A stretch of 64,000 nucleotides of DNA from Granulicella cerasi. GTDB lineage: Bacteria > Acidobacteriota > Terriglobia > Terriglobales > Acidobacteriaceae. The DNA is taken from assembly GCF_025685575.1 (NCBI RefSeq), contig NZ_JAGSYD010000002.1, positions 310,001 through 374,000 on the forward strand. Reading direction: 5' to 3'. Of the stretch, positions 36,663 through 42,351 are shown piece after piece. Position 1 is the first letter of the stretch. Each line of letters opens with the position of its first letter. The notes under the pieces are model-generated. The model was not told the DNA's origin, did not search any database, and saw only the letters and a program-made list of their open reading frames with translations. Both the position numbers and the translations under genes were made by a program.

Positions 36663-36703
36663 TCCGTTGCTCCTTGGTAAGAGGGAAAGACCTGGATAAA
36701 GCA

Positions 36704-36730
36704 AAAGGGCGGCTTTGATCGCCGCCCTTT
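36704..36730 (-). terminator. Terminator of cspA
   Basis: 10-bp stem (36704-36713 with 36721-36730), loop of seven; on the minus strand it ends CCCTTTTGC. It lies 24 bases after the cspA stop. Confidence 0.85.
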
Positions 36731-36753
36731 CGTCAAACTGCTCGTTCCGCGAT

Positions 36754-36957
36754 TTAGAGACCGCGAACGTTCTCAGCCTGCAGGCCCTTCGGACCCGTCA
36801 CAACGCTGAACTCCACTGCCTGGCCTTCGGCCAGCGAGCGGAAGCCCTGCGTCTGAATCGCGGTGTGGTGAACGAATACGTCACCACCACCGTTTGCACG
36901 GCTGATGAAACCAAAACCCTTAGCGTCGTTGAACCACTTTACAGTGCCCTGCTCCAT
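36754..36957 (-). CDS. cspA: Cold-shock domain protein
   Basis: 67 residues from ATG 36957, preceded by AAAGGAAG. The sequence opens [20 protein letters not shown], with RNP1 (KGFGFI) and RNP2 (VFVHHTAI) motifs. It is the single-domain RNA chaperone type. The ~200-base gap to the divergent ffh gene holds a leader with a 9-bp hairpin just before the ribosome site, consistent with the long structured leaders known in csp genes. Confidence 0.96.
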
Positions 36958-36982
36958 AGTATTTCTTCCTTTTGAAACTAGA

Positions 36983-37022
36983 TGTACCGACGAACATTTG
37001 GAACAGATGGCGAGTCGGTACA
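36983..37022 (-). promoter_or_regulatory. Hairpin in the cspA leader
   Basis: Arms TGTACCGAC (36983-36991) and GTCGGTACA (37014-37022) pair perfectly over nine bases with a 22-base loop. The stem ends about 14 bases from the AAAGGAAG ribosome site. A role in temperature response would be inference. Confidence 0.5.
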
Positions 37023-37158
37023 GCAGGAACACGCAAAAAGACCAGACCGATCGTTCGATCCTCTACAGCATAGCAGCCTCGTACCCCTTTTTTGCAAACT
37101 TCCGTGCACACTCCGCTTCCACAGCATCGAATCCATATCCCTGTAAACTGAAAACGCC

Positions 37159-38553
<1,395 letters not shown>

Positions 38554-38611: not shown

Positions 38612-39280
38612 ATGGCAAATATTCGTATCTCCGTTAATGGACTTGCCGAATTCATGAAGGCTGGAGCGTCGCGTCAGCGTGCGATGCTTAGGAACTATAA
38701 GTTCCAGTTCGATGCGAACGGCCATAAGCGGCCACAGATCGTCCGATATAGTGAGGCTCGTGCAGCCATAAAGAAATTTCACGAATCAGGCAACGATATG
38801 GGGCTTTTAATCAGCGCCGCAGTAAAGCTCCAGAAGAAGGAAGCAGCAGAGCCGGACAGGGATAGCTCAAGGCTACGGGATAATATTCGCGCAATTGAGT
38901 CATATGCTACTCACTTCGGCAATTCAAAATTTCAGATCATTGATAGCCCTAAACCTGTGTATACACATGGGACTGTTGACGTGACGGCGACGCCGGATCT
39001 CTATGTCGACGACCAGGGAACACCCAAGATCGTCAAGTTGCATTTCAGCCGAACCGAGCCAGATCAAGATCACATTAATATCGTGCTCAAAGTGATGCAT
39101 GAGGCGGTTACCTCATGCGGCATCAACGTACATCCACGTGATGTTATTTATCTTGATATCGCACGCAATCGCCACTACACCGGCGCTAAGCTCAATAAGA
39201 GGCTCAAATCAGATATCGATGCGGCATGTGACACTATTGCCGATATCTGGCCAAAGATTACCCAAACTACAGGAAATTAA
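38612..39280 (+). CDS. Hypothetical protein, possible PD-(D/E)XK-like domain
   Basis: 222 residues from ATG 38612. I do not recognise a named family. The N-terminal third is basic (SRQRAMLRNYKFQFDANGHKR). The middle and end read TATPDLYVDDQGTPKIVKLHFS, then two helices and DVIYLDIARNRHYTGAKLN, ending in DAACDTIADIWPKI. A Pro-Asp followed ~11 residues later by a Lys in a strand resembles the core of RecB/PD-(D/E)XK nucleases, but the Glu before Lys is missing (IVK), so activity is doubtful. Base composition is clearly lower in GC than ffh, suggesting acquired DNA. It converges on the TIR-like gene; the two stop codons share TTAA. Confidence 0.6.
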   Translation: MANIRISVNGLAEFMKAGASRQRAMLRNYKFQFDANGHKRPQIVRYSEARAAIKKFHESGNDMGLLISAAVKLQKKEAAEPDRDSSRLRDNIRAIESYATHFGNSKFQIIDSPKPVYTHGTVDVTATPDLYVDDQGTPKIVKLHFSRTEPDQDHINIVLKVMHEAVTSCGINVHPRDVIYLDIARNRHYTGAKLNKRLKSDIDAACDTIADIWPKITQTTGN

Positions 39281-40044
39281 TCAGACTCTCCAGAGAGCTG
39301 GATCGCATCGGTATCGAAAAGTTTTCTCCTATTCTTCTCAATGGAGTTCGCTAGCTTCTCGTCCAATTCTGCGAGATTGGAGAAGAAAAGCACATTCTGA
39401 TGAATGTCGAAATGGATTTTCGTCGCCGTCCCCGGATGCAGCACACTCTGCTTGCTGGCGATATAGACGATAGGCTTTCCTATCCCTTCCGCATAACCAA
39501 CTTCAAAATAGCAAGATGGGCGCTCATCGGTCATATCGGCAACGATAAAAATTGCCCCTCGAATTTCTTTCTTAATGCGTCCAACTAAGTCTTCGATGGC
39601 ATGCTCTTTATCAATACGAATGGCAACCCCGCCAGCATCGGAAATCACGCGCTCGATGGTTTCAAAGCGCTCATCATACTCGCGATGCACACGCTGTTGG
39701 TCCTGATCCCCCATCTTGTCCCCTTGAATTGGGGTTACAACAAAGACGCGGGGCTTCTTAACCGCGAGAATGTCATTTGCTCGATTCTCGAAGCGGCTGA
39801 AGATATTTCTTTTTCTTTTGATATGCTCGGCCAGAGTCGATTGACGCTTATCCCAAACGGAACTGGTTTCGTAGATACGCAGTTCGAGCACTTGATAACT
39901 TCGGCGTTCGGATCCCCACTTTGCGGTGATAACGCCGCTGTTTACGAATGGGATGACAACATCCGTTAGTATCTGACTTTCCGTCTTATTAGGGATCGTC
40001 TTTTGACGATTTCCAGAGAGAACAGCAATCGCATGAAAACTCAA
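39277..40044 (-). CDS. TIR/nucleoside-2-deoxyribosyltransferase-like domain protein
   Basis: 255 residues from TTG 40044, which has GAGG seven bases upstream. Residues 1-95 form an N-terminal domain of unknown type (QVLELRIYETSSVWDKRQST). Residues about 97-215 look like a Rossmann-type NDT/TIR-like fold: PRVFVVTPI, a helix ERFETIERVISDAGG, the strand AIFIVADMTDERPSCYFEVG and GKPIVYIAS. Glu181 in CYFEVGYAEG is at the catalytic Glu position of these enzymes. Related domains cleave N-glycosidic bonds of nucleotides or NAD and often occur in phage-defence systems. Low GC, accessory setting. Fold assignment is by pattern only. Confidence 0.65.
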   Translation of the reverse strand: MSFHAIAVLSGNRQKTIPNKTESQILTDVVIPFVNSGVITAKWGSERRSYQVLELRIYETSSVWDKRQSTLAEHIKRKRNIFSRFENRANDILAVKKPRVFVVTPIQGDKMGDQDQQRVHREYDERFETIERVISDAGGVAIRIDKEHAIEDLVGRIKKEIRGAIFIVADMTDERPSCYFEVGYAEGIGKPIVYIASKQSVLHPGTATKIHFDIHQNVLFFSNLAELDEKLANSIEKNRRKLFDTDAIQLSGESD

Positions 40045-40429
40045 TCCGCGACCTCAAGAGTGGAATACCATTATTGTAATCTTAGAGGTTGGCGATATGC
40101 ACTCCTCCGACTCACAGTGACGCGTTGCTCCATGGCGGGTAGCCCACCTGTCGTCTAAGCAAGAATTTGGGTGCCCCATCCGTACACGCTGCTGCGGACG
40201 CGTGGGAGACCACAACCGCCAGCCCCGCCACGAACCTTCATCCCACCAAATGCCCCATGAGCCAAGAACGGTAGGGCACGGCTTGAGCCGCGCCACCAAC
40301 CACCCGCGCTGGAGCGCCTCCGCTCTGCCGAAGGCCGTCGTGAAGCGCCCTAGCGCGCAACGACCGAATTGCTTTCTTTCGCCAGCCACGAAGCTGCTAT
40401 CCTACGGCAAAATCGGAGTCAACCAGAGC
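40045..40429. other. Intergenic region, 385 bases, with mosaic repeat
   Basis: No gene is evident. The left part should contain the promoter of the TIR-like gene (minus strand). The middle, from about 40155, has GGGTGCCCCATCC and hairpin segments typical of dispersed repeats, and 40275-40377 is the left copy of a repeat found again at 41003-41095. Confidence 0.6.
40275..40377 (+). repeat. Left copy of ~100-bp dispersed repeat
   Basis: Starts with an imperfect hairpin around CACGGCTTGAGCCG. 57 bases on comes AGGCCGTCGTGAAGC (40332-40346), then GCGCAACGACC (40355-40365) and AATTGC. The same order and near-identical spacing recur at 41003-41095 in the same orientation. Confidence 0.75.
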
Positions 40430-40909
40430 ATGTCAGAGCCTTCGCCGCCAAACACTATTTTGGTGAACACGTCCTATCAAGTCGCCGTAGACACCTGGAA
40501 ATTTCAGGTTGAGCAATACTGGACGCGATCAAGCTACTACGTCGTATTCGAACTCGCCTTGGCCGCAGGAATATGGAAGGTCTTCGACGAAAAGCATTGG
40601 TTTACTTCAGGATTTCTCTCAGTCGGAGCAATTCTGTTTACCGTCCTTTGGGTTTTGAACAATGAGCGCTTGAACGAGTACATCAGCTATTACTGGAAAC
40701 GCCTCAAAGACGTCGAGAATGATTTAAAAATCCCACGCGAATACCAAATATTCCATCGCATCCATGATGCGGATGGTCTTGGCAAAAGGCGATACGACGG
40801 TAGCTACCGAACCTACGGCCGCATGCTTCCTCGAATCTTTTTTATTGGCTGGCTTTACATGGCCGTTTGGTCATTTCAGCTCGCGTTCCATCACTGTCCC
40901 TGCAAATAG
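40430..40909 (+). CDS. Small membrane protein of unknown function
   Basis: 159 residues from ATG 40430; a GGAG lies 11 bases upstream, which is a long spacing, and an in-frame extension to 40202 covers repeat DNA. Two hydrophobic segments lie near residues 32-44 and 55-72 (SGFLSVGAILFTVLWVL) and one at the C-terminus (MLPRIFFIGWLYMAVWSFQLAF). Between them is a charged helix (NERLNEYISYYWKRLKDVENDL). The family is not recognised. Lower GC than its surroundings, and bracketed by direct repeats, so it looks acquired. It diverges from the TIR-like gene across 385 bases. Confidence 0.65.
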   Translation: MSEPSPPNTILVNTSYQVAVDTWKFQVEQYWTRSSYYVVFELALAAGIWKVFDEKHWFTSGFLSVGAILFTVLWVLNNERLNEYISYYWKRLKDVENDLKIPREYQIFHRIHDADGLGKRRYDGSYRTYGRMLPRIFFIGWLYMAVWSFQLAFHHCPCK

Positions 40910-41002
40910 TGAAATAGGAACAACTGAGGCGGGTGCTGGAAGCCGGAGGACAACACCTCACCTCATCCCTCCCCAAATCCCACACAAAACAAAAACGAAG
41001 GG

Positions 41003-41095
41003 TCACGGCTTCAGCCGTGACATCCACCCACCGCACAAAACCCTTCCTTGCTGCCGCAGGCCGTCGTGAAGCAAAGCGCAACGACCAAATTGCCT
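41003..41095 (+). repeat. Right copy of ~100-bp dispersed repeat
   Basis: Begins with a perfect 8-bp hairpin TCACGGCT-TC-AGCCGTGA (41003-41020). AGGCCGTCGTGAAGC follows at 41058-41072 and GCGCAACGACC at 41076-41086, as in the left copy. The 264-base gap to the next gene holds nothing else I can name. Confidence 0.75.
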
Positions 41096-41173
41096 TCCTC
41101 CACCCAGCCACCAATCTCCACCAGAACATTCGACTCTTAATCGACAGGCCCTACACCTGCGATACCCTTCCCC

Positions 41174-41539
41174 ATGGGTCTGGACAGTGTCGAAATCGCA
41201 CTCCGCTGCGAAGGGTTCTTCGGAGTCACCCTCGCCGACGAAGACCTCGCGCAAACCAGCACGGTGCGGGAGCTTTACGAACTGATCTGCCGCACGCTCT
41301 CGCTCACGCCCGAGCAAAACCTCGTGCCGCCCAAGCATCTCCCCACCATCAGCGAGCGCGGGAAGGGCTTCCTCTTCCTCCACACCCGCAAGCCGCTCCC
41401 ACCACCCGCAGAACTCCTGCCATGGACGCCCCAAACCGTCTGGATCGGCCTCGTCGCCATCTTCGTCGATCAACAGAACCTGCCTCTGGATGAGATCCTT
41501 CCAGACGCACACATGGCACACGACCTCGGCATCGACTGA
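41174..41539 (+). CDS. Acyl-carrier-protein-like protein lacking helix I
   Basis: 121 residues. The N-terminus MGLDSVEIALRCEGFFGVTLADEDL matches helix II of acyl carrier proteins, with Ser5 in DSVE at the phosphopantetheine position; VRELYELICRTL matches the later helices. The ~35 residues that normally precede the Ser are absent and no upstream in-frame start exists. Residues 50-121 form an extra part with TPQTVWIGLVAIFVDQQNLPLDEI, which itself resembles an ACP helix I region and ends DLGID. No ribosome site is visible. If Ser5 is modified it would carry acyl groups; the partner enzymes are not adjacent. Confidence 0.65.
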   Translation: MGLDSVEIALRCEGFFGVTLADEDLAQTSTVRELYELICRTLSLTPEQNLVPPKHLPTISERGKGFLFLHTRKPLPPPAELLPWTPQTVWIGLVAIFVDQQNLPLDEILPDAHMAHDLGID

Positions 41540-41589: not shown

Positions 41590-42201
41590 TTACCGCTTGT
41601 GGCGGCCGCCGAAGGTGTAGAAGAGCGTGCCGGTCAGGGTGATTTCGTTGCGGCCGTTGCCCGCGAAGACGTCGTACTGCTGCGCCGAGTGCGAAAGCTG
41701 CTGGCGCTCGTAGCGGACCTCCGGGCGGATGCCGAAGCCTGCAGGCAGGTACGCGTTCACGCCGAGACCCGCACCCAGGTAGCCGCCCGACAAGGTCTGC
41801 GAGACCGTCGTGGTGCCGTCCGTGGCCTTGCCCTTCAGCTTCAGGCCGCCGCCCACCACCGAAACATAGGGCATCATCGCCTTCGCCGAGAACAGGCCGA
41901 AACGTGCAACGCCGCCGTAGTTGTGCAGGTCCACGCTGGCCGTGACGCCGCTTTCCGTCTGCGAGTGCAGCGGGGTCAGGGTGTATTCAAAACCCACGGA
42001 GATCTTGCGCACGATGTTGTACGACGCCGACACGTCGAAGGTGCCGTGGTTCTTGTAGCCCTCTTCGCCCTGACGGCCGGTATCGAGGTAGGAGTATCCG
42101 CCACCGACGGCGACTTCCGCCGTACGAGCCTGTGCAAAGGCCGTGAGGCCAGAAAAAACAAACAAGGATGCTGCGACTGCTATGAGTTTGAAGCTCTTCA
42201 C
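41590..42201 (-). CDS. Outer-membrane beta-barrel protein
   Basis: 203 residues from GTG 42201; the longer frame to 42285 lacks a signal at its start. KSFKLIAVAASLFVFSGLTAFAQA is a Sec signal peptide. The mature part alternates hydrophobic and polar residues as in 8-stranded barrels (EVAVGGGYSYLD, KISVGFEYTLTP, GYLGAGLGVNAYLPAGFGIRPEVRYERQQL) and ends in a hydrophobic strand (NEITLTGTLFYTFGG). It resembles OmpA/OmpW-type small porin-like proteins. A promoter with a long leader lies upstream. Confidence 0.82.
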   Translation of the reverse strand: MKSFKLIAVAASLFVFSGLTAFAQARTAEVAVGGGYSYLDTGRQGEEGYKNHGTFDVSASYNIVRKISVGFEYTLTPLHSQTESGVTASVDLHNYGGVARFGLFSAKAMMPYVSVVGGGLKLKGKATDGTTTVSQTLSGGYLGAGLGVNAYLPAGFGIRPEVRYERQQLSHSAQQYDVFAGNGRNEITLTGTLFYTFGGRHKR

Positions 42202-42351
42202 TCTGTAGGTACTTTCTTGAATTGCAGGATGCCTGCCCTGAGGTGCAGGAGCGTCTTCCGCGTACGCAGACAGGCGTAGCCTCAAACCCGCAGCTTGACT
42301 GCGAGAGATCGTTCAGGGCCCGTCATCGAATCGCTTGGAAACGTTCCCACT

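Follow-up and report, generated by a model that had tools for sequence, protein, structure and literature searches.

The pocket downstream of ffh

The stretch of DNA analysed here (64 kb, hereafter the window) lies within a 4.08 Mb genome of seven contigs, which by its gene content is probably that of an acidobacterium. It holds three small genes, P1, P2 and P3, directly downstream of ffh, and they are followed first by an acyl-carrier-like ORF (41174–41539) and then by a gene for an outer-membrane-type protein (41590–42285, − strand). The features of the pocket are:

37159–38553, + strand: ffh (SRP GTPase), the conserved left edge of the hotspot
38612–39280, + strand: P1, 222 aa, predicted Cas4/Dna2/AdnA-type PD-(D/E)XK fold with a degenerate active site (AlphaFold2, Foldseek, alignment of 12)
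38996–39037, + strand: P1 Asp129 (PD motif) to the invariant Lys142 (family alignment)
39277–40044, − strand: P2, 255 aa, putative two-domain NDT/TIR-like nucleotide N-glycosidase effector with a TTG start (profiles, model, alignment)
39760–40044, − strand: P2 N-terminal domain, residues 1–95 (predicted secondary structure; unmatched outside the P2 family)
39310–39753, − strand: P2 C-terminal NDT/TIR-like domain, residues 98–245 (profile, model, Foldseek)
39502–39504, − strand: codon of P2 Glu181, aligned with the catalytic Glu103 of MilB (alignment; PMC4081090)
39742–39744, − strand: codon of P2 Phe101, at the position of MilB Phe17 and DNPH1 Tyr24 (motif F-x-x-x-P; PMC4081090, PMC10603095)
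40430–40909, + strand: P3, 159-aa 8xMP (PF24838) membrane protein (63.9 bits; same site in G006 and G016)
40325–40383, + strand: left copy of a short imperfect direct repeat flanking P3 (repeats D1, D2)
41051–41104, + strand: right copy of the same repeat (repeats D1, D2)

P1 and P2 are convergent and overlap by 4 bases. Just left of ffh, a cspA thermoregulator RNA (Rfam RF01766; window 36699–37055, − strand) lies over a cold-shock protein gene.

An earlier note on this DNA had described three ORFs, at 38612–39280, 39277–40044 and 40430–40909, in an AT-richer pocket, and both the ORFs and the composition were found as described. At 0.476, the GC content of 38612–40044 undercuts all sliding windows of equal size in the 64 kb (mean 0.610, sd 0.027, minimum 0.478); nowhere else in the stretch does a window fall below 0.5. 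The GC contents of P1, P2 and P3 are 0.478, 0.471 and 0.475, respectively, against 0.642 for ffh.

In most of 28 same-genus genomes ffh is about 80–97% identical to that of the window, and the match to the nearest relative ends abruptly at the ffh stop codon and resumes at P3. The region 3' of ffh was inspected in 20 genomes of the same genus (L056–L075), giving 21 loci together with the window. The first 500 bp after ffh have a GC content below 0.56 in 13 of these 21, while ffh itself is at 0.60–0.65. In most of the genomes one or two low-GC genes, differing from genome to genome and mostly unrelated, start right after the ffh stop codon. The earlier note had called the site variable, and so it is: nearly every genome of the genus has other, mostly low-GC genes here, and P1 and P2 are not fixed among the relatives. 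Occupants elsewhere include UPF0175 with DUF3368/PIN (PDC-S70), TIR_2 with an ATPase, an HNH protein of the CBASS/SAVED type with a PDC-S42-like gene, Fic (PDC-S04), AAA_15/21, HEPN_Swt1 beside PDC-M34A, DUF4145 (L064) and DUF6119. A cargo hotspot carrying such genes supports, at the level of sequence, the assignment of 38612–40909 as a defence-type accessory pocket. Ten hotspot genes were scanned with PADLOC, and at the same cut-off 2 of 10 ordinary window genes also gave matches, one of them weak; the hotspot genes were chosen by eye from about 22, and the comparison therefore points strongly to an enrichment but is no unbiased measurement of one.

In L074 (2428–5199) an AAA_15/21 ATPase gene, with NsnB as its best PADLOC match, is located directly 3' of ffh and followed by an unmatched 380-aa gene. 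The two are a candidate two-gene defence system.

P2, a predicted two-domain NDT/TIR-like protein

Support for the TTG start of P2 comes from relatives whose proteins start at the corresponding residue (MPYHAIAV..., MYYQLIAT...). From the stretches PRVFVVTPI and CYFEVGYAEG and from Glu181, all of which are found in the translation, the earlier note had proposed a TIR- or NDT-like enzyme, and structure prediction bears this out. The AlphaFold2 model, built from 3 sequences only (pLDDT 76, pTM 0.60; residues 201–216 below 50), contains a Rossmann/TIR-like core with the conserved Glu181, and a Foldseek search of the PDB returned MilB (3.9e-5), NDT (2.2e-4), DNPH1 (3.2e-4) and SARM1 (3.2e-4). The C-terminal half matches the PADLOC profile for CBASS TIR effectors (PDLC00733) with 34 bits (E 3.1e-9). 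It also matches three unnamed PHROGs (E below 1e-8) and, less well, a fourth (0.002). The score against PF05014 (Nucleoside 2-deoxyribosyltransferase) is 18.6 bits, under the curated cut-off of 28.8, and no Pfam TIR family was matched at E 10, the TIR signal coming only from the PADLOC 'TIR effector' profile.

Model and alignment agree on a flavodoxin-like core with a catalytic-type Glu, as in the NDT/MilB/DNPH1 superfamily. Glu181 is aligned by phmmer with the Glu of MilB HVEIGWA, and exchange of this residue (E103A) leaves MilB catalytically inactive (PMC4081090). The segment F101-V-V-T-P-I-Q107 lines up with the MilB motif F-L-(G/A)-(G/A)-P-F-(R/K) (PMC4081090). Phe101 is located where 2'-deoxy-specific NDT has a Tyr beside the catalytic Glu, and P2 does not carry this tyrosine. 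MilB uses Phe17 at this position to accept ribose, DNPH1 has Tyr24 there, and the F17Y exchange shifts MilB to deoxyribose substrates (PMC10603095); in TIR NADases the position is usually Phe or Ala (PMC11204291). The Phe thus suggests that ribose is favoured over deoxyribose, and P2 looks made to act on a ribonucleotide. P2 has Gln107 at the position of MilB Arg23 and is therefore not expected to share MilB's base specificity. By a hand count, the spacing of MilB Asp78 and DNPH1 Asp80 leads to about Gly155, with Asp152 nearby. Judged by its predicted fold and key residues, P2 is an NDT/TIR-like, putatively nucleotide-cleaving protein.

In summary of its relationship to the nucleotide N-glycosidases MilB, BcmB and DNPH1, P2 shares with them the predicted core fold and, as in MilB, the catalytic Glu and a Phe at the ribose-selecting position, but it differs in an extra N-terminal domain, in Gln107 and in a 'DMTDERPSCYFEVGYAEG' motif. 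Furthermore, the P2 gene is mobile, low in GC and without biosynthetic neighbours. The N-terminal domain (about 95 residues) is predicted to fold as beta-beta-alpha-beta-beta-beta followed by helices, and profile searches and tblastn against plasmids gave no sequence match to it outside the P2 family. The overall arrangement of domains has been published before, in fusions of AbiJ-NTD1 with a nucleoside deoxyribosyltransferase, in which an N-terminal abortive-infection domain precedes an NDT-fold enzyme (PMC3710099). AbiJ-NTD1 is about 140 aa long and mostly helical, whereas the domain of P2 has five strands.

Two families of defence systems were compared with P2 as possible sources. Retron Eco1 (Ec86) has an NDT-like effector domain, as P2 has, and, going by the title of Carabias 2024, reportedly forms NAD+-hydrolyzing filaments. 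In contrast to the retron, the P2 locus lacks a reverse transcriptase (no such ORF in 36–44 kb, by reading) and a retron RNA (no Rfam match in 36–42 kb), and the N-terminal domain of P2 has no known counterpart; a retron origin was rejected for the lack of RT and RNA. CBASS and TIR effectors are similar to P2 through the PDLC00733 match of its C-terminal domain, and TIR NADases of the SARM1 type through its model. P2 differs from them in having no Pfam TIR match and no cyclase close by: no CD-NTase profile was matched among the flanking genes scanned, and a CBASS origin was rejected for this lack of a cyclase.

Among 150 relatives, full-length P2 was found in its own genome only, and 7 others have matches to the C-terminal domain in other architectures. 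Full-length relatives were found only in three deltaproteobacterial genomes, namely L017 (Deltaproteobacteria MAG, 63%), L018 (Smithellaceae MAG, 55–56%) and G823, where the gene is split over two contigs. In all three the GC content of the gene is far below that of its host (0.413 vs 0.656 in L017, 0.408 vs 0.544 in L018, 0.39–0.41 vs about 0.67 in G823), and neither P1 nor P3 lies beside it. The tblastn search of phages with P2 gave nothing useful, the scans of viral contigs nothing beyond distant matches to the C-terminal domain, and a viral structure search NDT-domain matches and a few phage proteins of about 70 aa. As far as sequence comparison can tell, this distribution is the pattern of a single-gene, stand-alone mobile effector.

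In L018 the P2 relative has a DUF4145 gene (1679–2281) immediately upstream; DUF4145 is of the HEPN type and is known from conflict systems. The neighbourhoods of the other P2 relatives have no evident partner.

The P1 and P3 families

The suggestion in the earlier note that P1 may be a PD-(D/E)XK relative was right for the fold but not for a nuclease active site. The AlphaFold2 model (pLDDT 89) matches Argonaute-associated ACE1 (5e-5), Dna2 (8e-5) and AdnA (1e-3), and thus has the fold of the Cas4/Dna2/AdnA RecB-family nucleases. At the sequence level the family has no Pfam match, and its profile gave no meaningful match among PDB chains; 'Pizza' designed repeats were discarded as repetitive artefacts, and Bac_globin and ShosA as weak chance matches. 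All 12 aligned members share Pro128, Lys142 and Leu159, and each has an acid, Asp or Glu, at position 129. At residue 140, two before Lys142, none of the 12 has an acid, the residue being aliphatic or aromatic-neutral/Met throughout, and no member has a lysine two residues after Lys142. The (D/E)xK element of the known nucleases is thus lost in either register.

Relatives of P1 are uncommon, turning up in 11 of 397 genomes of the order. Their neighbours include an HNH gene (L083), HsdS (L085), a PDC-S42 gene near a RelE toxin gene (L101), a PDC-M36A-like gene (L082), DUF3800 (L080, L084) or unknown ORFs, and a weak relative in L088 adjoins AlbA and PglX of a BREX-like cluster. Several are co-directional with the neighbour and nearly or actually overlap it, often lying within about 12 bp; in L080 the relative and DUF3800 are convergent, like P1 and P2 in the window. 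Searches of plasmids and phages (tblastn) with P1 gave nothing useful.

In three genomes P1 relatives are located near glmS (L086:8002–8664, in the own genome, C1; L087:6044–6727; L105:6018–6662). This is a second site for the family, with glmS recognised by reading translations. Downstream of the relative in L081 (4342–5786) are two overlapping genes for 312 and 169 aa, the second membrane-like, and neither has a Pfam or PADLOC match.

P3, taken for a membrane protein in the earlier note, belongs to 8xMP (PF24838), with 63.9 bits well over the curated cut-off of 30 and nothing marked that would set it apart. G006 and G016 also carry P3 at the corresponding position 3' of ffh, with neither P1 nor P2, and in G006 a 422-aa gene replaces these two between ffh and P3. 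Other 8xMP members of the order are scattered, mostly as single low-GC genes, and our literature search on the family found no paper. By sequence comparison P3 is an orphan accessory gene without linkage to P1 and P2 in relatives. Alongside the direct repeats that flank P3, a palindrome at 41001 occurs in three copies in the genome (up to 3 mismatches); it is not an abundant repeat, and repeat-driven turnover is thus unproven.

In G620 (L138:2957–4158) an 8xMP gene overlaps by 4 bases a gene that reads as TIR-like in translation, a possible two-gene TIR defence pair. Apart from G620, none of the 8xMP loci read has a TIR-like neighbour.

Interpretation of the locus

With moderate confidence, we favour an explanation in which a small site immediately 3' of ffh would take up and lose accessory genes as cargo, and in which P2, as a stand-alone, horizontally mobile effector, would be the chief occupant here. 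Its N-terminal domain, perhaps a sensor or oligomerisation domain, would hold or trigger the C-terminal NDT/TIR-like nucleotide N-glycosidase, most likely during phage infection. Once activated, P2 would use Glu181 to cleave a ribonucleotide at its N-glycosidic bond, and this cleavage would stop the growth of the infected cell. NAD+ is the first candidate substrate, by analogy with the TIR enzymes and the title on retron Eco1, and CMP-like nucleotides are the second. P1 would be a separate accessory gene whose product more probably serves as a DNA-binding or regulatory plug-in than as a nuclease, and P3 an older, unrelated occupant. The analysis itself gives the folds, as predictions, together with the residue alignments, the mobility, the hotspot and the missing linkage between the genes; catalysis, substrate, trigger and anti-phage role are inferred. 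P2 is probably a nucleotide-cleaving anti-phage enzyme of the cell-shutdown type.

NDT-fold proteins also act in nucleotide salvage and antibiotic synthesis, and P2 could be a metabolic hydrolase or transferase of the MilB/DNPH1/NDT type, serving in salvage or pool-cleaning rather than in defence. Its nearest solved structures are indeed metabolic, and both Glu and Phe match MilB. Such a role is nevertheless rather unlikely for a gene found as sporadic, strongly foreign insertions in distant bacteria, at a site common to defence-type genes, whose product has an extra N-terminal domain, Gln in place of the MilB Arg and a C-terminal domain that fits a defence effector profile better than PF05014. 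For P1, an active Cas4/RecB-type nuclease that cuts phage DNA would be in line with the matches to ACE1, Dna2 and AdnA, with the conserved Pro128, Lys142 and acid at 129, and with defence-type neighbours in several genomes. The loss of the (D/E)xK element throughout the family makes this unlikely. Only tentatively do we propose that P1 represents a new degenerate Cas4/Dna2-fold family acting as an interchangeable partner of unrelated defence effectors, and P2 a new single-gene NDT-type effector with its own sensor domain.

The earlier note had seen enzyme, nuclease-like protein and membrane protein as a possible defence module. A single system of effector, nuclease-like regulator and membrane protein has in its favour that the three genes are adjacent and all low in GC, that 8xMP and TIR-like genes overlap in G620, and that P1 relatives often adjoin defence-type genes. 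On the other hand, the orientations are +, − and +, a TIR-like neighbour of 8xMP was seen in G620 only, P2 relatives occur without P1 and P3, P1 relatives have other partners, and P3 occupies the site in two relatives without the other two. A single system is very improbable, and the three-gene module was rejected because the families were never together in any other locus found; P1, P2 and P3 are separate passengers rather than one machine. That the low GC content arose by mere chance, or because the composition of ordinary resident genes is relaxed, has nothing in its favour beyond the general GC spread within the window. It can hardly be true of the lowest stretch in 64 kb, where homology stops at the ffh stop codon, and it is already refuted by the absence of P1 and P2 from the site in most relatives.

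Bacteria of this group have, to our knowledge, had few of their defence systems tested. If our preferred explanation of the ffh site is true, the nucleotide-destroying anti-phage enzymes would gain a stand-alone member of the NDT type whose N-terminal domain had gone unrecognised, and an unnamed Cas4-fold family would be seen to travel with many defence genes. Furthermore, the DNA 3' of ffh would offer a compact and easily scanned hotspot for more defence candidates in these bacteria.
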